From Planctomicrobium sp. (lineage in GTDB: Bacteria > Planctomycetota > Planctomycetia > Planctomycetales > Planctomycetaceae), in the NCBI GenBank assembly GCA_029259835.1, contig JAJDEL010000173.1, forward strand, positions 1-12,364: a stretch of 12,364 nucleotides of DNA. Reading direction: 5' to 3'. Made by a program: the position numbers and the translations under genes. The notes below the pieces were generated by a model, which was given only the letters and a program-made list of their open reading frames with translations, did not search any database and was not told the DNA's origin. The stretch's first letter is position 1. Every line of letters begins with the position of its first letter. Below, one piece after another: positions 1-12,364 of this stretch.

Positions 1-506
1 TACTCAGGAACTCCTGTCTTCGGAGCCTTCTTCATGTAGACGAAAACATTTGCCAGGCCACCATCCTTTGAGACAACAACAGATTCATTTGGGACAGCCA
101 TTTCTGAACAAAACGGGTCTTTAGTCATCGCACCTTGGGCAAGAAGGTCAGCAAGTTTCGGAGCACTTCCTTTCACTACGACTCGACCCACAAATTTCGC
201 TGGCCCAGTGTAACTTGAAGTTGCAGAAGCTTTTTCAGCAACAGCTAGCTTTGGTGTTTCAGTGGCTGCAGTCATCTCTTTCTTTGGAGTTGCCACCGCT
301 GGAGTTGAATCCTGGCCCGCTGTTGGCGCTGCGACTTCGTTAGAAGTCTCTTCGGGATCATCAGAAAATGCAAGATCTTCAAACTGAATCACGACGTCAG
401 CAGCTGATTTGACCTCCGTCTTTTCACGACGAGGCTGAGGTGTGCAACCTGAAAGGATCGCAACCGTAAACAACAAAACAAATTGTATTTGAAACCGAGC
501 AAACAT
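1..506 (-). CDS. Cupredoxin-family-like lipoprotein, 3' end cut by window
   Basis: This reading frame opens with ATG at 504-506 and runs 168 codons to the window edge with no stop, so it is a partial gene. Residues 1-21 form a lipoprotein signal: a short hydrophobic stretch ending in L-S-G-C with Cys21 as the likely lipidated residue. Residues 25-100 are a low-complexity linker rich in Ala, Thr, Pro and Glu. From about 103 it matches the next gene upstream: a small beta-rich segment (KFVGRVVVKG), then D-P-F-C with Cys133, then N-E-S-V-V and G-G-L-A-N-V-F-V-Y-M-K-K. The two are therefore tandem paralogues, and 31 bp separate them. The part that would carry copper ligands in the paralogue lies outside the window, so metal binding cannot be judged. 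It is probably an envelope-anchored partner of the Rieske/cytochrome b complex encoded upstream; that role is inferred from context. Confidence 0.85.
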   Translation of the reverse strand, partial: MFARFQIQFVLLFTVAILSGCTPQPRREKTEVKSAADVVIQFEDLAFSDDPEETSNEVAAPTAGQDSTPAVATPKKEMTAATETPKLAVAEKASATSSYTGPAKFVGRVVVKGSAPKLADLLAQGAMTKDPFCSEMAVPNESVVVSKDGGLANVFVYMKKAPKTGVPE

Positions 507-537
507 TACTGTTTCCGTGTCTCTTTTCGAGATGAGT

Positions 538-1404
538 TTAACCGGCGAGTTTGGAAGCTTTAACTGTGACTTCAATCGGCGCCGCTTCTCCATTGGGCGG
601 AACATCCACCGAATATGATCGTTCGATGATCCCAAGTTTTTCATGCCAAATGACGAAATCAACTTTTCCAGCTGGAACGTTTGGAATTTCAAACGTTCCA
701 TCGAGATGAGTCACTGCCGCCCAAGGGTGGTCAAGTGGCATCACGTACGCTGACATAAATGTGTGGAAGTCGCAGACAATCCAAGTTGGCTTTCGATCAC
801 TGAACTGAAATTGGTAGTCAACGTTGGCTTCATTATTCGCCGAAATCGTTGCAGCTAGGGAATTCGAACCACCATTCAGTTTCACATTGTGGGCAATGGG
901 ATCAGAGTTCTTGAGCAGAACCGGTTGACCCACTTGCACAACTTGTGCGTGGGGAACAAAAATGCACCCCTGCTGATCCATGACAAGTTGATCAGTAGGT
1001 GGGGGTGGGATATCAACATTTGGGACTTTTTTCAGATAGATGAAAACGTTCCCTAAGCCACCGCTTTCTCCGACGACAGATTCATTCAGGATGTCCATGG
1101 CGCCGCAAATCGGATCTTTTGCCTGACCTTTCGGACTCGCATGAGCAAGCTTCGGCAAGGCGCCATCAACAGAAATCGTCCCGCGAACCGTTCCGAATTC
1201 TGTGATCTTCGGTCCAGCCGCAACTACGGATTCTGCCTCCGAATCACCTTCCCCACCTTCACGCAAAAGTGTGACAGTGACAGGCGTTAAGGCTCCGCCG
1301 CCGAGTGCTTCTTTTCGTACGGACGAATCACATCCGGACACAAAGAGAGTCGACAACACGAGTCCGGCAAAGACGGTCTGTTTAGTTTGCATGTGAATCA
1401 TCAT
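538..1404 (-). CDS. Cupredoxin-like lipoprotein with carboxypeptidase-regulatory-like tail
   Basis: A 288-residue lipoprotein: the signal segment ends in F-V-S-G-C with Cys25 as lipidation site. Residues 65-127 match the family segment shared with the downstream paralogue (D-P-I-C at 97-100, N-E-S-V-V, G-G-L-G-N-V-F-I-Y). Residues 140-222 look like a cupredoxin: His172 in N-S-D-P-I-A-H-N, then C211-D-F-H214-T-F-M217, which fits the His...Cys-x-x-His-x-x-Met ligand pattern of type 1 copper sites. Residues 225-286 resemble a carboxypeptidase regulatory-like beta domain (D-G-T-F-E-I-P-N-V-P-A-G). Such proteins are common in planctomycete genomes but poorly characterised. The ATG at 1402-1404 overlaps the stop of the octahaem cytochrome gene (ATGA), which implies translational coupling. 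An ATG at 1390-1392 (residue 5) is an equally good start and keeps the signal intact. It may be a copper electron carrier accepting electrons from that cytochrome; this is inferred and copper binding is not proven. Confidence 0.9.
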   Translation of the reverse strand: MMIHMQTKQTVFAGLVLSTLFVSGCDSSVRKEALGGGALTPVTVTLLREGGEGDSEAESVVAAGPKITEFGTVRGTISVDGALPKLAHASPKGQAKDPICGAMDILNESVVGESGGLGNVFIYLKKVPNVDIPPPPTDQLVMDQQGCIFVPHAQVVQVGQPVLLKNSDPIAHNVKLNGGSNSLAATISANNEANVDYQFQFSDRKPTWIVCDFHTFMSAYVMPLDHPWAAVTHLDGTFEIPNVPAGKVDFVIWHEKLGIIERSYSVDVPPNGEAAPIEVTVKASKLAG

Positions 1405-4400
1405 TCGGCACCAGCTGCTTTCGCTGGAGGGGCGGCAGACTCTGGGTTGTAAGTCGTCGGACCGTGTATTTCGAGCAGTTGTTTGTAGTTGAAGAGTCCG
1501 TCAATGATCGATTGTGCCTGACGTGGGTTCTCACCGCCAAAGAGCTTCTTCATGTCGGCAGGTTTTCCAGCCGGGAAGTTCTCTGGCATTGACGTGTAAG
1601 GGTAAACCCACATCGGTTTGTAAACCCAAAGCTGAGTCCATTCTGGTCGCAGCCGCTCTTCAGCACGCTGGAGATTTGGACCTTTGATCTGCTTTGGGTC
1701 GTTGACAAAGTTACCACCGACATTGTGACACTTCCGACACAGCGGACCGTTGAGGACATTCCAGGAAGCTGAGAGGTAATCGTGCTCTGCTTCTGGGAAT
1801 TTTCCAGCGTATGTTGCGGCTTGTTGAGCCTGATATTCCAACTCTTTCGGTGGAATCGATTGATATGGGAACGCAACTCCATCCTTCGCAGCGAAGTAGT
1901 TCGCCAGCGTCTGGGCTTCTTCGTCGCTCATATTAAATCGAGGCATCCGCAAAACCGTCGTCCGACGTAGTGGTTCAGGATTTTTTAGGAATTGATACAG
2001 CCACGGAGTCTGCACCTTGAAACCTTCGGAGGTCAACGGAGGAACCGATGCCTGCCAGGCAGCGTTGTAATCTGTGCCACCAGGTGTCTTACTGAGTTCT
2101 GGAGCAAGCTTGCCAGCTAACCACGCGGCAAATTTTCCACCGCGACCATCAATGAACTTACGGACTTGACCTTCGGCGATTTGAACACCTTCACTCGGCA
2201 TGATGTACTTGCCGTCAGCGAGTTGGAAACCATCCCAGAATCGGTAGGAGTAAAAACGGAACTCCGAATCTTCTTCATCGGGGTCAGGGATTCCCTGAAT
2301 GAATCCGTTAGCTCGGTAAACGAGTGATCCATCCTCTGTCGTTTCACCTGTCGCGCCTTGTCCACCACGCCCGATGGGCTTGATGTGCGAGAGTAAATCA
2401 AAGGCAGCGCGGTCTGCGTCTGCGATTTCCTGACCTTTGATAGCCAGAATTGCCGGATCGTAGGCAAATTCGACGGAACCCATTTCGAGAACGTGACAAC
2501 CTGTGCAATTGAACTTGGCGAGCAATCGCTCCCCTTCAAAAATTGCTTCTTTGGATTTGTCTGGACGGTACTGGAATTCCTCCGATGGTGGATGAGCGAT
2601 CAACCCCAGGACGAATGTTGAGACTGACTCGATCTGATCTTTGTCGAGCGGGAACTTCGGCATTCGAAGTCGCTCGTCCCAGCCTTTTGTCTCAGTCTTT
2701 TTGTAATCGTAGCTTCTTGGCTGGCGAAGTTTCTGCCAGAGGAAGCCTGCTCGACCATGCGAAATCACGCTCTTGTAGAGCATTGCTTCCGTCAAATCTT
2801 GCTCGCTGACGTCTTCGTCACCAGCCTCCTTCTTTGCAACAATCATCTCCATCCGAGCAGCCGTACTTGTTCCAAGTGCAGCGTGGTCATCGTCACCGTG
2901 CGATCCATGAGCGTGTGAATCGTGGTCGCCAGCTGACTTCTTAACTGGTTCACCGTGGTGATGTAAGTATTCGTGAATGTGTTCGTAGGCCAGCTTCGAA
3001 GTGTCTTTACGGCCCCAATCCTGAAGTGCTGTTCCTATCGGTCGTGCAGTTTCAAATCCAGGGATATCGTGGCAACCATAGCAGCCGTAACGCGAAATCG
3101 TACGACGGCCGAGATAGACCATTTTTCGTTCTTCCCACTGTTCTGGTGTCACTTCTTCATCAACACTCAGTGGAGCAAGTTCGACTTCGTCACCTTTAAT
3201 CACACCCGGAAGCAACGCTCCGTCGGCATACATCTCAGCCTTCACCGGATACTTGTGTTCGTCAAGTGCTTTATTTAAGCCAGCGTTACCAAGGGCCTTA
3301 CCCAGGAACAGACGGACCAAATCATCCAGAGGTGTCGCGACAATCAGCCGAGCAGTCAACTCTCGACCACCGCGAATGACCGATAACGTGACCACATCGT
3401 TCACAGATGTTGCAGCCTCAAGCTCTTCCAGGTGCTCCGGAGACTTGATTGCCGATCCATCGAATGTAGTGAGAACATCGCCCGCAAGCAGTGGGCAAAC
3501 TTCCCAACCTTCGTCGTTTTTCTTTTCAGCGCGGTCAGCCGGGCTTCCTTGAATAACTTCTTGAACCAGAATGCCACGGAATTGATCATCGCTGAGGCCA
3601 AGTTCTTTTGCATCTTCTTCAGTGAAGTCATGCGCTGCGACCAACCCGAGATTCGGTTTTGGAATCGGCAACGCAGGGAATTCTTTCGCACCACCTTGTA
3701 GTAAGTACGTCGCGATATCTGCCGCCGGATCAATGTAAGTTTCACCCTCTTCGTATGGTTTCAGAAACAGGTCAGGCATTTTCGTTCGTGTGTGATATCG
3801 ACTTGGCTCTTTAATCCAAGTGTACATCCACAGGAAGCCATCTTTGCCAGGCTTGACCTTTTCATGAATCCTGGAAAGGTCTGGGCCAAAGTTCGCGGTA
3901 ACACCTTCGAAAGCTTCGCCCTGCTTGCTGTGACAAGCTAAACAACCCCGCTTAGAGAAAAGTTCTTCTCCACGCTTAGCATCTGGAGTGTAGTCATCAT
4001 TAGGTGAGAGATACTCGAACTTCTCCGACTTGACTTCAAGGTATTTCGCAATCGCTGCGAGCTCCATAGGCTGCAGGAGTGCTGCCATGGCATCGTGCTG
4101 GTTCGTGAGATCAAAGAACTGCGGCATTCGCGTTGTCGGGCGGAATCGACTCGGTTCTTCTGTCCAGTAAGCAATGAATTCTGGTGTTGTTTTGCTGGCA
4201 ATGTGACGAAGTGCTGGCCCGACCTTTCGCATTTTCCCAGGGATCATGTTCGGATCAGCTTCGATAATCGCGAGTTCTTCAGGCGAATTCGGCTCCAATC
4301 GCAAGTCAGGACCAATTGGTGTTGTCCCGTCGAAACCATTGATTTCGTGGCAACCAAAGCAGCCATAAGAACTAATCGTTTCAAAACCCTTAACGAGTTT

Positions 4401-5576
4401 CGGTGCTGTTGCCCCGAACGTCGGATTCACTCCAAGTTCAACCACATCATGATGGCATTGCAGGCAACTTGATTCTATGAAATGGCTCGGAAGTTGTGGT
4501 GATTCCCAGAAGTGATTGGAATGCCAACCATGTTTCTTTTCCCACTCCTTCGCGACGACTGGGTTCGCAGGTGTATGTTCCGCGTTTTGGAAACTCGTGC
4601 CTGAACCATCTCCAGCGTGACAGATTGTACATCCGAAGTCATTAACTGGATGAGGGCTTGCTGCGGTGAGAAAGAGCTCAGGGTTCGGGTGAGAAACAAA
4701 CGGCTGCGGGAAATCTCCATCCGGGTAACTCTGCTTCATGCCGGCAACCTGACCATTCTCGCGGACAACACTAAAGTCATCAATAAAGACATGGCATGTC
4801 CGGCAGCGGTCAACACGATCAACCTCTTTAGATCCTAACGTCTGCTTTTGCCCAGACGGCCAATCGTACTGAATTTTGATATGAGGGTTGAATCCTTCAA
4901 GAATTGGCAACTCTTTTGCCCAGCGTTTAATGGCAACAAAACTATTGTCTGGGGCGAGGAGATTCTGTTGCTCTTTCAGAGCATCTTCTGCCTCGGTTGC
5001 TTCAGCAAGTGCAGTTTTCGCTGCATCAAGCTGACTGCGTTGAGTATTGAGACTACTTTTTGCTGCTTCAAATTTTGCGAGTGCCTGTTCGGCAGAGAGA
5101 GCCGTCTCATTAGCAACGAGCTTTGCCTGCTCGAAGACTCCCAGGTAATGAGCCAAAACTTCGGGACTCGATTCATCACGAACTTGAATATCGTAATCTG
5201 CCCGCGCCTTATCACGTTCGGCATTTCGCGTCTTCGAATCCGCCTTGAGAATCTGGACCTGACCTTCAAGAGCACGCAGTTCTGATTCAAGATTCTTGAC
5301 ATCAGATGAACGCGCGTCCCAGTCAGCTTGCAAGAGTTTGACACTCTCCTTCAGTTCTTCGACCTTCTTCAGGTAATCAGCGTCGTTGTACTTCTCACGT
5401 TCCTGTTCGACGCGCTGTACACGGTACTTTTCACCCTGCTTCTGGTAGTGCTTCCAGGAACGAGCTTCGTCTTTGTACATCATTAACAAAGTCGTACCGA
5501 GTAGTAACACGGCACTCGCCGCAAACACTTTGTGCATTTGCGGGAGACTTCGCCAATACTGTTCACTTGCTGGCAT
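1401..5576 (-). CDS. Membrane-anchored octahaem cytochrome c with coiled coil and PDZ domain
   Basis: A 1391-residue cytochrome c. Residues 16-33 form one membrane anchor with a short N-terminal inside stretch. Residues 40-208 are charged, Leu/Ala-rich and strongly predicted by eye to be coiled coil. Eight CxxCH haem sites start at Cys258, 316, 371, 406, 545, 832, 1024 and 1280. The last five are each followed by a W/F...P...MP segment with a candidate axial methionine (Met484, 600, 972, 1211, 1330); the first three lack one and may be bis-His. Residues 665-748 read as a PDZ domain (G-S-P-A-D-R-A and L-A-G-D-V-L-T). Residues 866-898 carry ten histidines. The gene follows the cytochrome b genes and overlaps the lipoprotein gene by ATGA. 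It probably takes the place of cytochrome c1 or f, carrying electrons from the Rieske protein to periplasmic acceptors. The haem count is read directly; the role is inferred from context. The start has no clear Shine-Dalgarno sequence, but it puts the anchor at the expected place. Confidence 0.93.
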   Translation of the reverse strand: MPASEQYWRSLPQMHKVFAASAVLLLGTTLLMMYKDEARSWKHYQKQGEKYRVQRVEQEREKYNDADYLKKVEELKESVKLLQADWDARSSDVKNLESELRALEGQVQILKADSKTRNAERDKARADYDIQVRDESSPEVLAHYLGVFEQAKLVANETALSAEQALAKFEAAKSSLNTQRSQLDAAKTALAEATEAEDALKEQQNLLAPDNSFVAIKRWAKELPILEGFNPHIKIQYDWPSGQKQTLGSKEVDRVDRCRTCHVFIDDFSVVRENGQVAGMKQSYPDGDFPQPFVSHPNPELFLTAASPHPVNDFGCTICHAGDGSGTSFQNAEHTPANPVVAKEWEKKHGWHSNHFWESPQLPSHFIESSCLQCHHDVVELGVNPTFGATAPKLVKGFETISSYGCFGCHEINGFDGTTPIGPDLRLEPNSPEELAIIEADPNMIPGKMRKVGPALRHIASKTTPEFIAYWTEEPSRFRPTTRMPQFFDLTNQHDAMAALLQPMELAAIAKYLEVKSEKFEYLSPNDDYTPDAKRGEELFSKRGCLACHSKQGEAFEGVTANFGPDLSRIHEKVKPGKDGFLWMYTWIKEPSRYHTRTKMPDLFLKPYEEGETYIDPAADIATYLLQGGAKEFPALPIPKPNLGLVAAHDFTEEDAKELGLSDDQFRGILVQEVIQGSPADRAEKKNDEGWEVCPLLAGDVLTTFDGSAIKSPEHLEELEAATSVNDVVTLSVIRGGRELTARLIVATPLDDLVRLFLGKALGNAGLNKALDEHKYPVKAEMYADGALLPGVIKGDEVELAPLSVDEEVTPEQWEERKMVYLGRRTISRYGCYGCHDIPGFETARPIGTALQDWGRKDTSKLAYEHIHEYLHHHGEPVKKSAGDHDSHAHGSHGDDDHAALGTSTAARMEMIVAKKEAGDEDVSEQDLTEAMLYKSVISHGRAGFLWQKLRQPRSYDYKKTETKGWDERLRMPKFPLDKDQIESVSTFVLGLIAHPPSEEFQYRPDKSKEAIFEGERLLAKFNCTGCHVLEMGSVEFAYDPAILAIKGQEIADADRAAFDLLSHIKPIGRGGQGATGETTEDGSLVYRANGFIQGIPDPDEEDSEFRFYSYRFWDGFQLADGKYIMPSEGVQIAEGQVRKFIDGRGGKFAAWLAGKLAPELSKTPGGTDYNAAWQASVPPLTSEGFKVQTPWLYQFLKNPEPLRRTTVLRMPRFNMSDEEAQTLANYFAAKDGVAFPYQSIPPKELEYQAQQAATYAGKFPEAEHDYLSASWNVLNGPLCRKCHNVGGNFVNDPKQIKGPNLQRAEERLRPEWTQLWVYKPMWVYPYTSMPENFPAGKPADMKKLFGGENPRQAQSIIDGLFNYKQLLEIHGPTTYNPESAAPPAKAAGAE

Positions 5577-5648
5577 TGTTATTCAACGTTGCTCTGCTCT
5601 GCCTGCAAGGTTGCCTATTTGACAACCGCCGACAGAAATCAACTTCAC

Positions 5649-7019
5649 TTAGATGTTAAAGACCCACTCGGGAATCGAAACGATGTATTTCAGATTAAAG
5701 ACCCACCGCAGCACCATCTTCAATGGTAGCGAGGCCATAAAAAGAAACAGGTTCGCAAGCACCATAAACCGCACGAATCCCATTTTCACGAAGAACTTCT
5801 TAAAAATGGTGACTGCCAGCAATGGAGGAATCGCAAACAAGTAAAACAAGATGACAAGTATCCCTGTCCACTCACGCAGCAAAATCGAACTCGCTTGCGA
5901 AACGAAACTAGTTTCCGGGTCAGGCTTCGGGAGAGGAAGCTCCAGAAACGTCAACCAGAAATAATCGGACAAGTTGACATTGTTCAACACTTCAAGTTTG
6001 TGCGAATCCCAATACTCATAAAGTCCGAACATGTTCCAGTTTGGACCACGAATAAACGTCCCGAGAACGATCATCCCGGTCCATAATGGCATAAACCCAA
6101 ACAGAAAAGTCGTAATCGCAAATGGACGCTCATTGAACGTGTAGTAACCGTTACCCTTGGTATTGAAATCGATATAGGGGATCGCCATCAGCCCGACAAG
6201 AATCACACTCGGAAGGACAACCCCAGCCATCCACGGATCAAAGTAGACCAACATTTCCTGAAGACCAAGGAAATACCAAGGAGCCTTCGATGGATTCGGT
6301 GTTTTGACTGCTGATGCCGGCTCTTCAAGAGGAGCCTGAAGTGCGACACCCCAGACGATAAGAAGTGCCGTGATCAGAATCATGCAGATCATCTCGGTAT
6401 AAACGAGATCGGGCCACACAAGAACTTGGTCAGAAAGCTCCTTTTCACGAACCGGGCGGCCTTCGGCAAGCCGCTTGTCATTCTCATTCGCCTTAACGAA
6501 GAACAACCATGTCGTAAAACCGACCAGAAAGAGCATCCCGACAATCGGGACATTATCAGGTTTACCAACAATCCTACGGAAGTCGTAGTCCGTCATACTG
6601 ACGGAAATAAACAACACGCTGAGATTAAAGAGAATCCAAGAGACAGTTGGCTTCACCCACGTTTTGCGAAGCACGATAATCGCAATATAAATGACGATAG
6701 ACAGGCAAAAAAAGCTAATCGGATTCGCAATGACCGAGTCAGCAGGATTTTTAATAAACTCGGGCAGCCTCAACACGAAGTCTTCCGCTGATGTTGCACT
6801 TTGGACCGCAAAATGAACCAAAGCAACAAGCAACAATAACGCAGAATAACCTGCCCATAAAAATGCTTTCGGGATGTGTTTAAACCCCAGAATGTCTTCA
6901 AACTGCCCATCAACCTTAAAGCTACGAACTGACCAGCCGATGTTCAAAAAGAACAACAGCAAGTACAGCCAGCCAAGGCCGTGAATCACGCCAACCGTTA
7001 AATCGGGATGAGGATTCAT
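5649..7019 (-). CDS. Cytochrome b C-terminal (subunit IV-like) protein, enlarged, about 10 membrane segments
   Basis: A 456-residue membrane protein. Residues about 200-325 align by eye with subunit IV (PetD) of b6f: W-P-D-L-V-Y at 202-207, a helix at 207-227, K-A-P-W-Y-F-L-G-L-Q-E at 245-255 where PetD has the PEWY motif, then helices at about 262-281 and 300-322. Ordinary PetD has about 160 residues and three helices. Here there are also five extra hydrophobic segments before it (about 10-31, 52-72, 100-118, 125-142, 158-176) and two after it (about 382-404 and 412-436). This subunit should complete the cytochrome b core and form part of the quinol-oxidation (Qo) site. It lies 82 bp after the cytochrome b6 gene and 72 bp before the octahaem cytochrome. 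TTAGGGAA sits close before the ATG as a poor ribosome site. The extra helices are not recognised; they might bind another cofactor or hold the large cytochrome c. Confidence 0.88.
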   Translation of the reverse strand: MNPHPDLTVGVIHGLGWLYLLLFFLNIGWSVRSFKVDGQFEDILGFKHIPKAFLWAGYSALLLLVALVHFAVQSATSAEDFVLRLPEFIKNPADSVIANPISFFCLSIVIYIAIIVLRKTWVKPTVSWILFNLSVLFISVSMTDYDFRRIVGKPDNVPIVGMLFLVGFTTWLFFVKANENDKRLAEGRPVREKELSDQVLVWPDLVYTEMICMILITALLIVWGVALQAPLEEPASAVKTPNPSKAPWYFLGLQEMLVYFDPWMAGVVLPSVILVGLMAIPYIDFNTKGNGYYTFNERPFAITTFLFGFMPLWTGMIVLGTFIRGPNWNMFGLYEYWDSHKLEVLNNVNLSDYFWLTFLELPLPKPDPETSFVSQASSILLREWTGILVILFYLFAIPPLLAVTIFKKFFVKMGFVRFMVLANLFLFMASLPLKMVLRWVFNLKYIVSIPEWVFNI

Positions 7020-7101
7020 AATTCCCTAACACCGCACTCTTATCAATGTACAAACAAAAATCGGCTTCACTTCCAAGCAAAGCTCTCAGCCAACTAAAAC
7101 A

Positions 7102-7875
7102 TTACAGCGGCTGACTAATTCCACCATCTTTACGAACACGCCAGAAGTGAACGGCGATCAGCCCTGAAACCACAATCGGAATTGCGACGCAGTGCAGGAT
7201 ATAAAACCTGTTCAAAGTCTCTTCACCCACAGTACGTGCCCCCAAGAGCAGGAACCGTGCATCGCTCGCATTTGTAATCAAATCAAAGCCACCCACGTTG
7301 AGCAACTGAAACCCTGGTCCCTCATGACCAAGGAATGGTGTCGCACGAGCCATGTTCGAACCAACCGTAATCGCCCAAATCGCCAACTGATCCCAAGGGA
7401 GCAGATAGCCTGTAAACGACAACAGCAGGGTCAACACCAGAAGTAAAACTCCAATCACCCAGTTAAATTCCCGAGGAGGCTTATAGCTCCCCGTCAGGAA
7501 CACCCGGTACATATGAAGCCACACGGTGATCACCATCGCATGCGCCCCCCAGCGATGAATCTCACGCATAATCCCGAGAGTATTCACATCTCGCAGGGCG
7601 CGAATATCAGTAAACGCCCACTCAAGAGTCGGGCGATAATAAAACATCAACAAAACGCCAGTGAGCGTTTCAACCAGAAACAGAAAAAACGTAATCCCAC
7701 CCATGCACCACGTGTAAGACAGGGCAATCCCGCCCTTCTTCGCAGAGACAGGGTGCAAATGCAAAAAGAAGTTCGTCAATATGACGACCGCACGATTACG
7801 ACGATCATACGGGGCAGGGTGGCGAAAAATGCTTCGCCAAATCTGCGACTTCCGAATATATTCAGTCACCGACAT
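7102..7875 (-). CDS. Cytochrome b6-type subunit (cytochrome b N-terminal half)
   Basis: A 257-residue four-helix dihaem cytochrome b. Haem ligands are visible as His107 (I-H-R-W-G-A-H) and His121 (W-L-H-M-Y-R) in the second helix, and His228 (Y-I-L-H) and His243 (A-V-H-F-W-R) in the fourth. The spacings are 14 and 15 residues; the 15-residue step is typical of cytochrome b6 rather than mitochondrial-type cytochrome b. Cys57 in W-C-M-G-G-I-T falls where b6 has the cysteine that binds haem ci (cn). F-Y-Y-R-P-T, F-L-T-G-S-Y-K-P-P-R-E and G-Y-L-L-P-W-D-Q are further b6-like signatures. A roughly 20-residue longer loop lies between the third and fourth helices compared with plant b6 (about 171-220). 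The protein ends G-I-S-Q-P-L, like b6, confirming that the gene is split rather than truncated. An AGGT ribosome site (complement of 7882-7885) sits at good spacing before the ATG. It carries quinol electrons through the membrane as the complex's core. Confidence 0.95.
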   Translation of the reverse strand: MSVTEYIRKSQIWRSIFRHPAPYDRRNRAVVILTNFFLHLHPVSAKKGGIALSYTWCMGGITFFLFLVETLTGVLLMFYYRPTLEWAFTDIRALRDVNTLGIMREIHRWGAHAMVITVWLHMYRVFLTGSYKPPREFNWVIGVLLLVLTLLLSFTGYLLPWDQLAIWAITVGSNMARATPFLGHEGPGFQLLNVGGFDLITNASDARFLLLGARTVGEETLNRFYILHCVAIPIVVSGLIAVHFWRVRKDGGISQPL

Positions 7876-7881
7876 GCAATT

Positions 7882-7885
7882 ACCT
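7882..7885 (-). promoter_or_regulatory. Shine-Dalgarno AGGT for the cytochrome b6 gene
   Basis: AGGT is followed by six bases (AATTGC) before the ATG at 7873-7875. This is the only well-placed Shine-Dalgarno match I see in the respiratory cluster; the Rieske, octahaem and lipoprotein genes have weak or no match. It supports the chosen start of the cytochrome b6 gene. Confidence 0.5.
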
Positions 7886-7935
7886 GACGGACACTACTTC
7901 AATAAACACAAAACAAAACGAGCCTTGCCGAGACC

Positions 7936-9048
7936 TTACGCAACTTCGTAAGACTTAGAGTCAGACCACTGACCCAGCTCTTCCTGAAACTTCACACTCT
8001 TATCAACTTCCAGCATCCCGTCATCGGCGACGCTAATCCCAACACGCTCCAGCGGACGCGGTGCAGGACCTTCAAAATTGACACCAGTAATATAAAAACC
8101 TGAACCATGACAGGGACACTTAAACTTCTGCTCCCCCTCCAGCCAGTTGGGAGTACATCCAAGGTGAGTACAAACAGAAGCCAAGGCGACAATCACGCCT
8201 TGCCCATCGTATTCATCTGTGTTCACAATCCAAATTCCACGAGCCGCCTTAAACTTCGCCGAGACAGTCCCTGGCGGAAAATCAGAAGGAGGACCAACCT
8301 TAAACCGGGAGGGTAACTCCAGAACCATGTTCGGCATCATAAACCGTGCTGTCGCGAGCGACCATATTGCCGCGATCGCACTCATTGAAGACCACGCCAA
8401 CACAAAAGGTGAAACCGCTAGAGCAGCTAAAAGAACCACAAACCCCCGGCGTCCGACCTTTTCCTTCTTACTGGGAAACTTCGGCTTCACAGGTGCAGGC
8501 TTACCAACAGGCAACTTCGGCTTCGCCGGACCACCTGTCACTTGAGCTTCTTTTACAGCAGCGACCATATCCTTCAAAGCAGGACGATCACCAACCGGTG
8601 CCACAGCAGCAGTTTTCTTTGCCTTTGGCTGACTCGCAGCAGGTGAGGCCTTCGCAGCACTTCCGCCTCCAGCACGAGCATCCGCTAGGATATCAGCGGT
8701 TGACTTAGGTGCATCAGCAGCAGGTTTTGGTTTTGTCGCCCCCCCACCTTGGGCACGGGCAGCAGCCATGATATCGGCTGTTGATCCTGGCGCCGCAGCA
8801 GGTTTCGGCTTCTCGAAACCACCTCCCTGAACAGGGTCTCCCTGAGCACGGGCAGCGGCGAGAATGTCAGCAGTTGACTTTGGTGCTGCCGCAGGCTTGT
8901 TATCTTCAGCCGGAACGGGAGCTTGAGAAGATTCCGGAGTAGCGCTGCTCCCCGAATTATCATCATTAGAATCCGCACCTCCACCACTGTCTTGTTGACG
9001 GGCGAGAGCGAGAATTTCTGCAGTTGTAAGTTTCTTATTATCCGCCAT
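7936..9048 (-). CDS. Rieske 2Fe-2S protein with repeat-rich N-terminal extension
   Basis: A 370-residue Rieske protein. The cluster-binding boxes are C293-T-H295-L-G-C298 and C311-P-C313-H314-G-S-G-F, giving two Cys and two His ligands plus the disulphide pair. Residues 199-235 hold a twin-arginine pair (G-R-R-G-F) followed by a long hydrophobic segment, as expected for a Tat-inserted signal anchor. The first 195 residues, absent from ordinary Rieske proteins, are Ala/Pro/Lys-rich and contain four copies of a short helix-like unit resembling S-T-A-D-I-L-A-A-A-R-A-Q-G at about 7-19, 57-70, 88-101 and 115-128. Given the Tat topology this tail should stay in the cytoplasm. It heads the respiratory cluster, 60 bp before cytochrome b6, and would pass electrons from quinol to the octahaem cytochrome. 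The start is supported because the first repeat begins only six residues in. No Shine-Dalgarno sequence is evident. Confidence 0.95.
   Translation of the reverse strand: MADNKKLTTAEILALARQQDSGGGADSNDDNSGSSATPESSQAPVPAEDNKPAAAPKSTADILAAARAQGDPVQGGGFEKPKPAAAPGSTADIMAAARAQGGGATKPKPAADAPKSTADILADARAGGGSAAKASPAASQPKAKKTAAVAPVGDRPALKDMVAAVKEAQVTGGPAKPKLPVGKPAPVKPKFPSKKEKVGRRGFVVLLAALAVSPFVLAWSSMSAIAAIWSLATARFMMPNMVLELPSRFKVGPPSDFPPGTVSAKFKAARGIWIVNTDEYDGQGVIVALASVCTHLGCTPNWLEGEQKFKCPCHGSGFYITGVNFEGPAPRPLERVGISVADDGMLEVDKSVKFQEELGQWSDSKSYEVA
8665..9030 (-). repeat. Four degenerate repeats coding for T-A-D-I-L-A-x-A-R units in the Rieske tail
   Basis: Four in-frame copies of a unit of about 13 codons, spaced irregularly (about 50, 31 and 27 codons apart) by Pro/Ala/Gly-rich linkers. 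The second, third and fourth copies are most alike; the first (T-T-A-E-I-L-A-L-A-R-Q-Q) is more diverged. A possible fifth, very degenerate copy may lie at residues 155-170 (P-A-L-K-D-M-V-A-A-V-K-E-A). The repeats are protein-level, with synonymous differences in the DNA, so they are old or under selection rather than a recent slip. Confidence 0.8.
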
Positions 9049-9235: not shown

Positions 9236-10378
9236 TCATTCCTTCTCGTGTTCCTCTTGCGATCCAAGGGCGCTGTCAATTTCAGCCAGAACCGATGCAT
9301 CCGCTTCAGCCGTACGCCGGGCAAGCAGAAACTTTCTCGTTTGCTCGTTCAGCATCCTCCCCAGCGCCCACGCAGATGCTCCACGAACTAAATATGAACT
9401 GTCCTGAAGCCCGGCATTCAAGGCAGAAATCCACTTTTCATCTCCAGAATTTCCCAGAATAATGGCTGCGTTTCTTGCCATTCCTTCTCGGTTTGGACGA
9501 GAAAATGGAGTCCGTTTATAGCGCGATTTGAATTCTTCTTCAGTGATCAACAAAAACGAAGCAGCGTCGCGAACAGAGGAGATGTCCGGCAAAAGCCCAG
9601 ACTCTTCCGTATTCGTTGCTTTTCGATTCCACGGGCAAACATCCTGGCAAATGTCGCAACCGAAGAGCCAGTCTTCCATGCCTGATCGCAGCGGTGCTGG
9701 AATCGGTTGACCACGTAACTCAATTGTCAGATACGAGATACACTTTCGAGCGTTCAGTTCATAGGGAGCCTCAAAGGCGTCCGTCGGGCATGCCTCAAGG
9801 CAGCGCGTACACGTTCCACAGTGGTCGGTCAGGTGAGGTTGATCGGGCGGCAACTCAACATCAGTCAGAATGCCGCCGAGGAAAAAGTAGCTTCCTTCCT
9901 GCTTGTTGATCAGCATTGTGTTTTTCCCGAACCAGCCCAGCCCAGCGATTCGCGCGAAGTCCCGCTCCAATAAGGGGGCGGTATCGACGATCACTCGACT
10001 GCGGCACCCCGGCGACGCTTCATGCAACACCGCAGCTAGGGACTTCAGCTTGCTCCGGATCAAATCGTGATAGTCAGCGGACCCGGCTGCGTATTTTGCG
10101 ATTCGCCCGACTCCAGTGCCAGTCGAATTGGACTCGCCATGAAAGTAATTGAGGCCGACGAGAATCAGACTAGACACATCCGGAAGAACTCCACGTGGAT
10201 GGCCATACGCATCTTTTCGTCGGGCCATGTAGCCCATTTCTCCGGCATGACCATCGGAAAGCCACTGATGCAGAAAGTCGATTGTATCTGGACGAGCCGC
10301 CGGCGCGATCCCGACTAATGAGAAACCGAGCTGATTCGCTTTGTCTTTGATCTGCGATGCGATTTCAGCTGCGGTCAT
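9236..10378 (-). CDS. queG: Epoxyqueuosine reductase QueG
   Basis: A 380-residue cobalamin-dependent iron-sulphur enzyme that makes the last step of queuosine synthesis, reducing epoxyqueuosine to queuosine in tRNA anticodons, in the cytoplasm. The family signature V-D-T-A-P-L-L-E-R-D at 131-140 and G-L-G-W-F-G-K-N at 146-153 are present. Two ferredoxin-like 4Fe-4S boxes are seen: C187-G-T-C190-T-R-C193-L-E-A-C197-P and C241-D-I-C244-Q-D-V-C248-P-W-N, with Cys213 between them as in other QueG proteins. Residues about 300-345 look like a HEAT-type repeat that in QueG helps hold the tRNA. Length is normal. It is not functionally tied to the respiratory cluster next to it; hairpins lie on both sides, so it is probably a separate transcript. 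No strong Shine-Dalgarno sequence is seen before the ATG at 10376-10378. Confidence 0.96.
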   Translation of the reverse strand: MTAAEIASQIKDKANQLGFSLVGIAPAARPDTIDFLHQWLSDGHAGEMGYMARRKDAYGHPRGVLPDVSSLILVGLNYFHGESNSTGTGVGRIAKYAAGSADYHDLIRSKLKSLAAVLHEASPGCRSRVIVDTAPLLERDFARIAGLGWFGKNTMLINKQEGSYFFLGGILTDVELPPDQPHLTDHCGTCTRCLEACPTDAFEAPYELNARKCISYLTIELRGQPIPAPLRSGMEDWLFGCDICQDVCPWNRKATNTEESGLLPDISSVRDAASFLLITEEEFKSRYKRTPFSRPNREGMARNAAIILGNSGDEKWISALNAGLQDSSYLVRGASAWALGRMLNEQTRKFLLARRTAEADASVLAEIDSALGSQEEHEKE

Positions 10379-10394
10379 AAAAATGACTTCGTTA

Positions 10395-10431
10395 CGTCGA
10401 AAAAATTTAAGTCGGACACTTTAAGTGTCCG
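10395..10431 (-). terminator. Probable rho-independent terminator after the permease gene
   Basis: CGGACACT (10413-10420) pairs perfectly with AGTGTCCG (10424-10431) around a three-base loop. On the minus strand the hairpin starts 14 bases after the permease TGA and is followed by ACTTAAATTTTTT, so the U-run comes after a spacer of about seven bases. A run of eight T on the minus strand also precedes the stem (10433-10440). The spaced U-tract makes this less than canonical, but it is the strongest stem with a T-run in the window. Confidence 0.6.
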
Positions 10432-10445
10432 GAAAAAAAACATGC

Positions 10446-11294
10446 TCAACTACTCGCGCTACGATAATTTGAAAGCGACCATGTGAAAATTCTCCTCGAA
10501 ATCAGCACCATGACCAGAGTCGTTGCCGGCGCGATCAGCAGCACGGTCCAGTTCGGATCGAGTGTCTTTCCAAGGATGTGACGTGACGGAACAGTCACGA
10601 CGAGCAGAATCGGAATAATAAACGAAAAGCCGAACCAGATGACTTCGCCACCGAACGACTGCTTGTAAAAGTTTTGCGGATAGCGCGCGAAAATCGTGAT
10701 GTAAAACCAAAAGTCGTACAGACCCTGGTTTCTACCGAACCAAACCGAAGTACTCGCCAGCGCAATCATCAAGCTATAGAAAAACGCGACACCCACTCCC
10801 AGCAGCAACACGTAGGTAATGCTCCTCCCAAGTGTGATCGTCGCTCCGGTTTGGGAGAGCGAATACCACAACAACCCGCCTGCCAGCAACAGCTGATTGA
10901 CCATCGCGAAGTTGACTTTCTCAAACGAGACCAGGAACTGCGTATCTATCGGCTTCAGCAATGCAAAATCGAGATCACCTGTCCTGATCAGTTCGCTAAA
11001 GTTCGCGCAGTTCGGCATGAAGAACGCTTCAACAAAAGAGTTGATGAGCATGCCTGTTGCCATAAATCCAAAATACTCTGGGCGACTCCAATCCTGAATC
11101 GTCGGCACGTGACTGAAAATAATATCGAACAGCACAAGCTGAGCCGTAAACCAAAACGCGCGGGTAACTAGCTCGATCAAGAAGTTCCCGCGAAACGTCA
11201 TTTCCCGAATCAGCGAGTTCCGAAAGAACATCGCCCAGACCCGAAAGTAATTCGGTCGGAATGAGTCATCAGCAGTCGGTCGATCCGGCGACAT
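10446..11294 (-). CDS. ABC-2 type transporter permease (COG3694/DUF990-like)
   Basis: A 282-residue integral membrane protein with about six hydrophobic segments. The N-terminal pattern ([13 protein letters not shown], then R-G-N-F-L-I-E) and the central [12 protein letters not shown] stretch are typical of permeases of the COG3694 group. These pair with an ATP-binding protein and usually a second permease (COG4587-like). No such partners are in the window; they would have to be encoded elsewhere. The substrate is unknown. I chose the ATG at 11292-11294. The frame stays open upstream to a TTG at 11409-11411, but those 39 residues are Arg/Cys-rich, cross an 8-bp hairpin and look unlike coding sequence, and family members are about 260-285 residues long. 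The stop is followed by a likely terminator. Confidence 0.88.
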
Positions 11295-11300
11295 TAAAAT

Positions 11301-11314
11301 TTCACTTGAGTGAA
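11301..11314. promoter_or_regulatory. 14-bp near-perfect palindrome just before the permease start
   Basis: TTCACT and AGTGAA are inverted arms around a two-base centre (TG), ending seven bases before the permease ATG. A dimeric repressor bound here would cover the ribosome site and start region. The site is short and could be chance; no regulator is encoded nearby. Confidence 0.3.
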
Positions 11315-11359
11315 TTCGATTTGAAAAGATTCTGCCTTGAGTTCTGCAACATCGCCTTG

Positions 11360-11381
11360 CACCACACTTCATTGTGTGGTG
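11360..11381 (-). repeat. 8-bp inverted repeat between cstA and the permease
   Basis: CACCACAC pairs perfectly with GTGTGGTG around a six-base loop, 23 bases after the cstA stop. No U-tract follows on the minus strand, so it is not a classical terminator. It may mark the 3' end of the cstA transcript or attenuate read-through into the permease gene. Confidence 0.5.
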
Positions 11382-11404
11382 ACCGCGAAGTCGATTTTCA
11401 CCCT

Positions 11405-12364
11405 CTAACAATTCGGAGCACTCGTCGTCCCGACCGGCGGCGTTTGAGCTAACGGCGGCAACGGCTGTTCAAGCTCCCCTTTCACTTTCGGCCATATCAG
11501 GAAGCCTTCAATGACCATCCAGACTTGCAGGGAAAGAATGAGTCCGCCAAAACTGAGTAGCAAGTAATTCCCGTCCGCCAGCCAGCCTTTCATTTGCCAA
11601 GTCAAGGCAAGTGCTGGCATGAGGAGCATCATGATCATTGGCAACAAAGCGAACAGAATCGGCTTGCTCCGTCGCCACAAGTAAAAGACCGTCACCATAA
11701 AGGCGAGTCCTGCGAGTAGCTGATTTGTGGCACCGAAGAGCGGCCATAAGATGAGACCGCCGGTGCCAATTCCTTTTGGACCTGGAAGCATGGCGACAAT
11801 CAAACCGAAGGTCACTGCAAGCCCGGTCGCCACATACTTGTTCTGAAGTGGCGGTAAGCGAAGTGTTCCGCCCAGTTCCTGAATGACGTATCTTTGCAAT
11901 CGAGTCGCAGAATCCAATGTTGTTGCAGCGAAACAAGCGACCAACGTGGCAATGATCCCAATTCCAAACCGCAGGGGAATTCCAAGAGTCGAAAGAAAGT
12001 TGGAACCACCTTCAACGAAGGCACCAACAGTGCTCGGCAACCCGAAATTACCCCAGTCTCCTTTGGAGTCGTACTTCATTGCCCACGCAGCATGACCTGT
12101 CACAGGCTCACCTGCTGCATTGACAGTTTGCGTAAAGGCGCCATCGGATTGCTTGGTGAAATGCCCCATTCCAATACCTGCGGTGCAAGCCAGAATGACA
12201 ATCACCGCGAGCGCCCCTTCCAGAAGCATCGACCCGTACGCGACAAATTGAGCGTCGCCTTCACTTTCGACTTGCTTGCTCGTCGTTCCGCTACTCACCA
12301 GGCAATGAAAACCGCTGCAAGCCCCACATGCAATCGTAATGAACAAGAACGGAAAAATCGGCGG
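11405..12364 (-). CDS. cstA: CstA-family carbon starvation transporter, C-terminal part (5' end cut by window)
   Basis: The open frame runs from the window edge to a TAG at 11405-11407 and codes the last 319 residues of a polytopic membrane protein. Its first visible residues [20 protein letters not shown] are a hallmark of CstA, followed by S-S-G-T-T. Further family blocks are [11 protein letters not shown] and the [20 protein letters not shown] stretch. CstA proteins import peptides and, in enterobacteria, pyruvate. About six or seven membrane segments are seen, with a Pro-rich hydrophilic tail at the C-terminus. CstA proteins are about 600-750 residues, so roughly half is missing. The start lies beyond the window; an in-frame TTG near the edge (12344-12346) is only a Leu codon within the conserved motif, not a start. 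Confidence 0.95.

Follow-up and report, generated by a model that had tools for sequence, protein, structure and literature searches.

A contig of 12,364 nucleotides from Planctomicrobium sp. (GenBank assembly GCA_029259835.1, contig JAJDEL010000173.1), here called the window, carries a cluster for a Rieske protein, a b6-type cytochrome b, an enlarged subunit IV, an octahaem cytochrome c and two lipoproteins, encoded in that order on the minus strand from position 9048 down to position 1. The cluster probably encodes a menaquinol oxidoreductase that translocates protons, belongs to the b6-split Rieske/cytochrome b kind and serves as complex III for an aa3-type oxidase. The Qo site, where menaquinol would be oxidized, would lie between cytochrome b6 and subunit IV; of the electrons released, one would be recycled through haems bL, bH and cN in a Q-cycle, and the other would pass from the Rieske cluster to a membrane-anchored octahaem cytochrome that replaces cytochrome c1 or f. 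From its His/Met haems, electrons would reach lipid-anchored amicyanin-like cupredoxins and/or a di-haem cytochrome c, and these carriers would deliver them to CuA of the aa3 oxidase from the same cluster. We infer haem ligation, copper binding, the Q-cycle, carrier order, physical assembly, potentials and electron transfer from sequences and their conservation.

An earlier reading of the DNA alone (the original prediction) had proposed six co-directional genes and a quinol oxidoreductase with an octahaem protein in place of cytochrome c1 or f. All six genes were recovered on the minus strand by open reading frame (ORF) and family searches, and the proposed complex is supported by synteny, by conserved haem- and copper-motif residues, and by the predicted fold of lipoprotein 1, with electron flow as the part that the sequences can only suggest. 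The absence of cytochrome c1 and f also held: the cluster contains neither, and the genome as a whole (G000), which is 82% complete, gave no match to cytochrome c1 (PF02167) and none to cytochrome f above the cut-off. The lone cytochrome f match, below the cut-off, was dismissed when its ORF was read by eye as RNA polymerase beta'. The window is an entire contig (C82), so that the cluster is truncated at base 1. A single scan of named genomes yielded five related loci, in the Planctomicrobium metagenome-assembled genomes (MAGs) L001 and L005, the planctomycete MAGs L002 and L004, and Thalassoglobus neptunius KOR42 (L003), a cultured organism that falls within the genus of the window.

Subunits and conserved residues

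The window holds 10 CXXCH-type DNA motifs, compared with 0.82 expected and a maximum of 5 in 200 shuffles, which rules out a chance origin; 8 of the 10 fall within the octahaem frame. Of 61 aligned octahaem sequences, 60 retain all eight motifs, and the lone sequence with seven (L094) runs out at a contig end (in the alignments, L003 and L048 are one locus entered twice, and the fragment L005 is excluded). Three invariant histidines (296, 309, and 334) lie among the first three haem motifs, and a Met-Pro pair follows each of the last five, with Met484, Met600, Met972, and Met1211 conserved at 100% and Met1330 at 98%; this pattern suggests three bis-His and five His/Met haems. Hydropathy places a transmembrane (TM) segment at the N terminus in 10 of 13 rows tested, the window included, and a match of residues 34 to 207 to SMC-like proteins, far below the cut-off (E = 0.0043), suggests a long helical stretch. 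A PDZ domain was considered as a defining part of the protein and rejected, its segment being filled in just 13 of 61 sequences, all from the family of the window or from L001 to L004. The search for solved-structure relatives returned nine matches, none better than E = 0.16, and their targets were PDZ proteases or single c domains.

In the Rieske subunit, the cluster motifs CTHLGC...CPCHGSGF have residues conserved at 94 to 100% in 53 sequences, and the two Cys/His ligand motifs, CTHLGC and CPCHGS, at 100%. At the tuning positions Ser is kept, and Phe stands where bc1 has Tyr, as in Kustd1480 of Kuenenia; by that Phe in the printed chain, the closest solved structure, 9rk3, which the table lists without a locus tag, was identified as Kustd1480. 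The N terminus is long, Ala/Pro-rich, and repeated; window positions 8480 to 9048 contain several Ala-rich repeats of the form PKSTADILAAARAQ, with similar ones in near relatives and none in the distant rows shown.

The haem b ligands of the b6-type subunit (His107, His121, His228, and His243, with His spacings of 14 and 15) are conserved in 98 to 100% of 52 sequences. Its Cys57 aligns with the b6f cysteine that we take to be the carrier of haem ci/cN and is predicted to be the covalent site for this haem; Glu209 of subunit IV, whose counterpart is presumably Phe40 in b6f numbering, is the probable second ligand of haem cN. By hydropathy, subunit IV has about 10 TM helices, a b6f-like core plus about five extra N-terminal helices (approximately 6435 to 7019) for which no Pfam or NCBIfam family match was found; the same measure gives five helices in all in L099, a locus discussed below, and seven to eight in rows from other classes. 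The three subunits thus described share with cytochrome b6f the split of b6 and subunit IV, the haem cN cysteine, and the His spacings, whereas the window differs from it by having the octahaem protein in place of cytochrome f, a long Rieske N terminus, an enlarged subunit IV, and no PEWY motif.

The lipoproteins had been described as copper-like. This proved apt for lipoprotein 1, which has a predicted cupredoxin fold and a conserved amicyanin-like motif; its residues 137 to 224 align with amicyanin 18 to 105. Among 70 lipoprotein-like ORFs, drawn from 50 loci and from any place within the regions, the copper-motif residues occur in 96 to 99% and the amicyanin-type loop C-x2-H-x2-M in 63, and we regard the motif as a putative amicyanin-like site at which copper may bind. 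The start codon of lipoprotein 1 overlaps the octahaem stop at 1401 to 1404. For lipoprotein 2, a start at 506 is more likely than one at 701, as judged from the signal sequence, and a full-length relative (L001, 15065 to 16033) has the copper motif. All six genes are present in L001 and L003; L002 and L004 have one lipoprotein, and L005 begins inside the octahaem gene. In L005 (2590 to 2919), lipoprotein 2 is reduced to a short open frame, through either assembly error or decay.

Table 1. Positions in the window of the cluster's genes and of the residues and domains discussed (aa, amino acids)
Feature	Position	Strand	Basis
Rieske [2Fe-2S] subunit, 370 aa	7936-9048	-	PF00355; best solved relative 9rk3_A, E 9.9e-35
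Cytochrome b6-type subunit, 257 aa	7102-7875	-	PF00033; cytochrome b6 7r0w_I, E 8.8e-43
His39 of b6, proposed interface-haem residue	7759-7761	-	equivalent of Kustd1481 His62; His-to-Arg spacing 204; 52/52
Cys57 of b6, predicted haem ci/cN site	7705-7707	-	aligned via 7r0w_I to b6f haem ci/cN Cys; 52/52
Subunit IV, 456 aa	5649-7019	-	PF00032 just under cut-off; b6f subunit 4 similarity at residues 200-315
Glu209 of subunit IV, probable haem cN ligand	6393-6395	-	b6f Phe40 position by alignment; 98% of 53
APWYF at Qo motif, subunit IV	6270-6284	-	alignment
Octahaem cytochrome c, 1391 aa, proposed c1/f replacement	1401-5576	-	eight CXXCH; PF00034, PF14522
N-terminal TM anchor (~14-34) and long helical stretch (to ~207)	4956-5537	-	hydropathy; weak SMC-like match
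Haem motif 1 (residue 258), read as bis-His	4791-4805	-	CXXCH; invariant His 296/309/334
Haem motif 2 (316), read as bis-His	4617-4631	-	
Haem motif 3 (371), read as bis-His	4452-4466	-	
Haem motif 4 (406), read as His/Met, Met484	4347-4361	-	
Haem motif 5 (545), read as His/Met, Met600	3930-3944	-	
PDZ domain between haems 5 and 6 (residues 664-744)	3345-3587	-	PF13180, E 7.5e-9
Haem motif 6 (832), read as His/Met, Met972	3069-3083	-	
Haem motif 7 (1024), read as His/Met, Met1211	2493-2507	-	
Haem motif 8 (1280), read as His/Met, Met1330	1725-1739	-	
Cupredoxin lipoprotein 1, 288 aa, lipobox-like Cys25	538-1404	-	model mean pLDDT 71; cupredoxin matches
Proposed type 1 copper site His172, Cys211, His214, Met217	754-891	-	amicyanin spacing
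Cupredoxin lipoprotein 2, first ~168 aa, without copper motif region	1-506	-	rest past contig end

Gene order among planctomycetes and the link to an oxidase

In a survey of 392 planctomycete genomes, the octahaem protein had matches at E = 1e-3 or better in 254, many of them partial, and the b6 protein had matches in 244, other cytochromes b included. Within the family of the window, 32 further genomes were compared: strong octahaem matches (E < 1e-100) occur in 16, and strong b6 matches (E < 1e-150) in precisely these 16; in the remaining 16 the best values are 4.6e-10 for octahaem and 2.4e-27 for b6. Gene order outside the window's own genome was read in 56 regions chosen, nonrandomly, around the strongest octahaem matches, own-genome regions being uncounted; in 44 of them the octahaem gene is preceded, within 6 kb and on its own strand, by the genes for Rieske, b6, and subunit IV, so that the arrangement is not peculiar to one genome. 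Among the 12 exceptions, 5 have the octahaem gene within 2.3 kb of a contig end (L071, L079, L083, L084, and L086); L074, L082, and L096 have the Rieske gene only, with b6 10 to 11 kb off on the same strand (L082 and L096) or on another contig (L074); and L067, L100, and L101 have no Rieske, b6, or subunit IV gene within the region. The last, L098, is rearranged: its genes share one strand, but octahaem and cupredoxin come first and Rieske, b6, and subunit IV after them. Upstream of the cluster in the window (9236 to 12364) lie genes for QueG, an ABC-2 permease, and CstA, in the same order as in L001 and L003.

Downstream of the octahaem gene, cupredoxin-like genes occur within 5 kb in all 16 regions of the family, in all 7 further regions of the same class, and in 20 of 33 regions from other classes. 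A di-haem cytochrome c follows in 16/16, 7/7, and 3/33 of these sets, respectively, and coxB in 16/16 (a fragment only in L059), 5/7, and 4/33; coxA follows in 15 of the 16 family regions, L059 stopping at its contig end. Read by eye, coxB retains the CuA motif. All five named relatives go on from the cluster to the di-haem cytochrome c, coxB, and coxA, and L001 to L004 continue with ctaA, ctaB, coxC, and cox4. In the window's own genome, contig C465 (9,986 bases) begins inside a di-haem cytochrome c gene and continues coxB-coxA-ctaA-ctaB-coxC-cox4, and gene order in the relatives indicates that C82 and C465 are probably adjacent. Past cox4, C465 (L042, 7039 to 9985) carries a pair of ABC-transporter-like ORFs and an SCO1-DUF420 fusion, perhaps for CuA assembly. 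Only part of the ORFs neighboring the clusters carry labels, and further partners are possible. The original prediction had electrons delivered to a copper carrier; a copper carrier is supported, but it is probably not the end of the chain, because the cluster continues into the di-haem cytochrome c and the aa3 oxidase, and it may not be the first carrier either.

In a midpoint-rooted tree of 51 of the 61 loci, those having all three proteins (L001 was excluded), the loci labeled aa3 form one clade of 25 (support 0.993), with three more elsewhere; the labels were set by hand and include the window, whose oxidase is on a separate contig, and L059, with its coxB fragment. This clade bears on the possibility that the complex is a quinol-linked wire to another acceptor, such as extracellular metal, nitrogen oxides, or a multihaem reductase, and that the oxidase genes are mere neighbors. 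Multihaem wires often serve such acceptors, three of the haems are probably bis-His, and outside the class coxA is rarely linked. We nevertheless consider this unlikely, since the five conserved Met-Pro partners and the conserved copper motifs suit high-potential transfer and the clade of 25 is entirely aa3-labeled.

Other respiratory loci and counterevidence

The window's complex is one of three Rieske/cytochrome b loci in its genome. On contig C353 (L106), a Rieske gene is accompanied by the beginning of another cytochrome b; in three relatives from the genus (L107, L108, and L109), the corresponding cytochrome b has an intact PEWY and a fused portion bearing two CXXCH motifs. Contig C76 (L045, 5183 to 8036), where a gene is cut by the contig end, combines a Rieske gene with an unsplit cytochrome b and with a multihaem protein that matches PF13447 and, far below the cut-off, hydrazine dehydrogenase. 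There are two COX1 genes, one of the aa3 type on C465 and one cbb3-like, with FixO, on C149. With three Rieske/cytochrome b loci present, it is mainly the operon link that leads us to pair the octahaem complex with the aa3 oxidase. No NrfD-type quinol subunit, as in alternative complex III (ACIII), occurs in the cluster, and ACIII was rejected as the quinol oxidase: the single NrfD gene of the genome lies elsewhere, beside an ORF with four CXXCH motifs (neighbors read by eye). Menaquinol is the expected donor because this genome and two relatives each have two PF02621 genes, which we take to be of the MqnA/MqnD family of the futalosine route to menaquinone, and MenD falls under the cut-off.

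Several observations weigh against a complex III that serves the aa3 oxidase. Half of the sampled family is without the octahaem complex; coxA is linked in just 5 of 7 other same-class regions and 3 of 33 from other classes, several contigs ending early; and a lipobox-like motif, sought with a crude pattern, occurs in just 36 of the 70 lipoprotein-like ORFs. The genus has a second bc complex, the one with the fused di-haem c, and either complex could serve the oxidase; a cbb3-type oxidase is also present in the genome. The AlphaFold2 model of octahaem residues 192 to 1391 has a mean pLDDT of 35 and was left unused, so that it gives no haem distances. PEWY is not found at the Qo site, where 98% of 53 sequences have APWY. 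Canonical Rieske/cytochrome b complexes have PEWY there, and the motif is known to vary, so we do not regard it as a strict mark of the class. The original prediction had also pointed to a further bc operon whose products co-purify with these subunits as a challenge to its reading; a second bc operon does exist, and nothing shows that it shares subunits with the octahaem complex.

Relation to anammox complexes and to respiratory supercomplexes

Kuenenia is described as having three Rieske/cytochrome b complexes, two of them with hexa- or octahaem cytochromes c and NAD(P) oxidoreductases (PMC12954380). Kuste3096-3097, by its description, resembles the C353-type complex (PMC12954380). The window's cluster shares with Kustd1480-1485 a b6-like cytochrome b, a separate subunit IV, and a large multihaem c with a TM anchor and long helices, which recall the helices of Kustd1485 described as wrapping around the complex (PMC12954380). 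Also shared are the Rieske Ser and Phe (the isolated Rieske domain of Kustd1480 was measured at +335 mV), the haem cN glutamate (Glu209 here), which is discussed as lowering the potential of haem cN, and the His/Arg/Lys set at a predicted new haem b between two cytochromes b, formed in Kustd1481 by His62 with Arg266 and Lys267 nearby (PMC12954380). The window's counterparts His39 and Arg248 occur in 52 of 52 sequences and Lys249 in 98%. Neighboring His41 is equally conserved, and His39 is preferred because of its 204-residue spacing: in L099, taken for an anammox relative from its Rieske protein and gene order, a His and an Arg-Lys pair stand 204 residues apart, matching Kustd1481, and align to His39 and Arg248-Lys249. 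The octahaem protein of L099 has eight haem motifs and is 30% identical to that of the window over 860 aligned residues, at 938 residues compared with 1391.

These likenesses raise the question of whether the window encodes a bifurcating complex of the anammox kind, in which the low-potential electron would go to NAD(P) in the way suggested for Kustd1480-1485: the subunit family is the same, the Rieske protein is nearest to 9rk3, the three conserved residues match the proposed interface-haem site, and Glu stands at the haem cN position. The NAD(P) oxidoreductase itself sets the systems apart. With that of L099 as the query, only L099 itself was found at E = 1e-5 among ORFs of at least 70 residues in 65 regions (the window, the own-genome regions C465, C353, and C76, L001 to L005, and L046 to L101; regions rather than whole genomes), so that the interface His is not tied to such an oxidoreductase in the cluster. 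Moreover, a large gap between the b6 and subunit IV genes (2.3 kb) occurs, among complete sets, in L099 alone, and the cluster of the window leads to an oxidase instead; bifurcation is, in our judgment, very unlikely here. The window further differs from Kustd1480-1485 in the helices of its subunit IV (about 10 compared with five, in PMC12954380 as in L099), in the PDZ insertion, and in the cupredoxins, di-haem cytochrome c, and aa3 oxidase that follow in relatives.

Outside the planctomycetes, an octahaem protein adjoins a split-b operon in Nitrospina, and Kuenenia and Methylomirabilis are described as having the same operon structure (PMC3578206). Compared by description, Nitrospina gracilis and Methylomirabilis oxyfera share with the window the Fe-S protein, the split cytochrome b, and the adjoining octahaem c, whereas they belong to other phyla and are a nitrite oxidizer and a nitrite-driven methane oxidizer, respectively; the accessible text makes no mention of aa3 or cupredoxin linkage in these operons (PMC3578206). 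Nitrospina is discussed there under reverse electron transport, and operation in reverse, with electrons from a high-potential donor pushed into the quinone pool, might be imagined for the window too. The conservation of CuA oxidase genes downstream in the window's family and the failure of a family scan to recognize any donor enzyme in the window make it extremely improbable.

The original prediction knew of no characterization of a complex with this subunit set. That statement is too broad for the complex type, which has been described from Kuenenia, Rieske structures included (PMC12954380), and elsewhere as an operon (PMC3578206). No planctomycete octahaem complex joined to cupredoxins and an aa3 oxidase was found in titles and the beginnings of abstracts of the open literature, subscription papers lying outside this scope, which is weak evidence of novelty. 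Related reports describe Phycisphaerales genomes that lack bc1 and encode ACIII (PMC11266412) and, for Planctomycetes, b6f-like Rieske paralogues, a fusion of cytochrome b to c1, and one type of COX operon that includes an Nrf-like cluster (PMC4013037); the accessible part of PMC10732223 does not mention Rieske. As far as checked, the new element is a variant that lacks the NAD(P) oxidoreductase of the anammox systems and is linked to an oxidase and to copper carriers. The octahaem Rieske/b6 complex occurs in many planctomycete families, and its link to aa3 and copper in the window's family and part of the class.

In the actinobacterial bcc-aa3 supercomplex and in ACIII-caa3, complex III and an A-type oxidase cooperate via bound c haems. 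The c subunits there are a di-haem c or a penta- plus a mono-haem protein, and ACIII is without Rieske or cytochrome b; the window, by comparison, has an octahaem protein plus cupredoxins. We tentatively propose, as an idea about which we have more doubt than confidence, that the octahaem protein, the cupredoxins, and the di-haem c might bind Rieske/b6 and aa3 into a supercomplex that carries electrons from menaquinol to oxygen without a diffusing carrier, and that His39 might hold a haem b across the dimer in these aerobic complexes too. If this were true, the interface haem, which has been proposed to serve NAD(P)H formation in anammox bacteria, would date far back in the family and let the two monomers share electrons; the anammox complex would then be a relative of a respiratory complex III that gained an oxidoreductase. 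The NAD(P)H proposal can be checked against the occurrence of His39 in 52 of 52 sequences, only one of which was found with an NAD(P) oxidoreductase beside it.

Our results suggest that the octahaem Rieske/b complexes of anammox bacteria would be part of a broader family in planctomycetes, and that the members of this family near the window resemble a complex III that is ordinary except for its extraordinary c subunit. Cultured relatives such as Thalassoglobus neptunius KOR42 allow the eight haems, the copper carrier, and the interface haem of this family to be tested.

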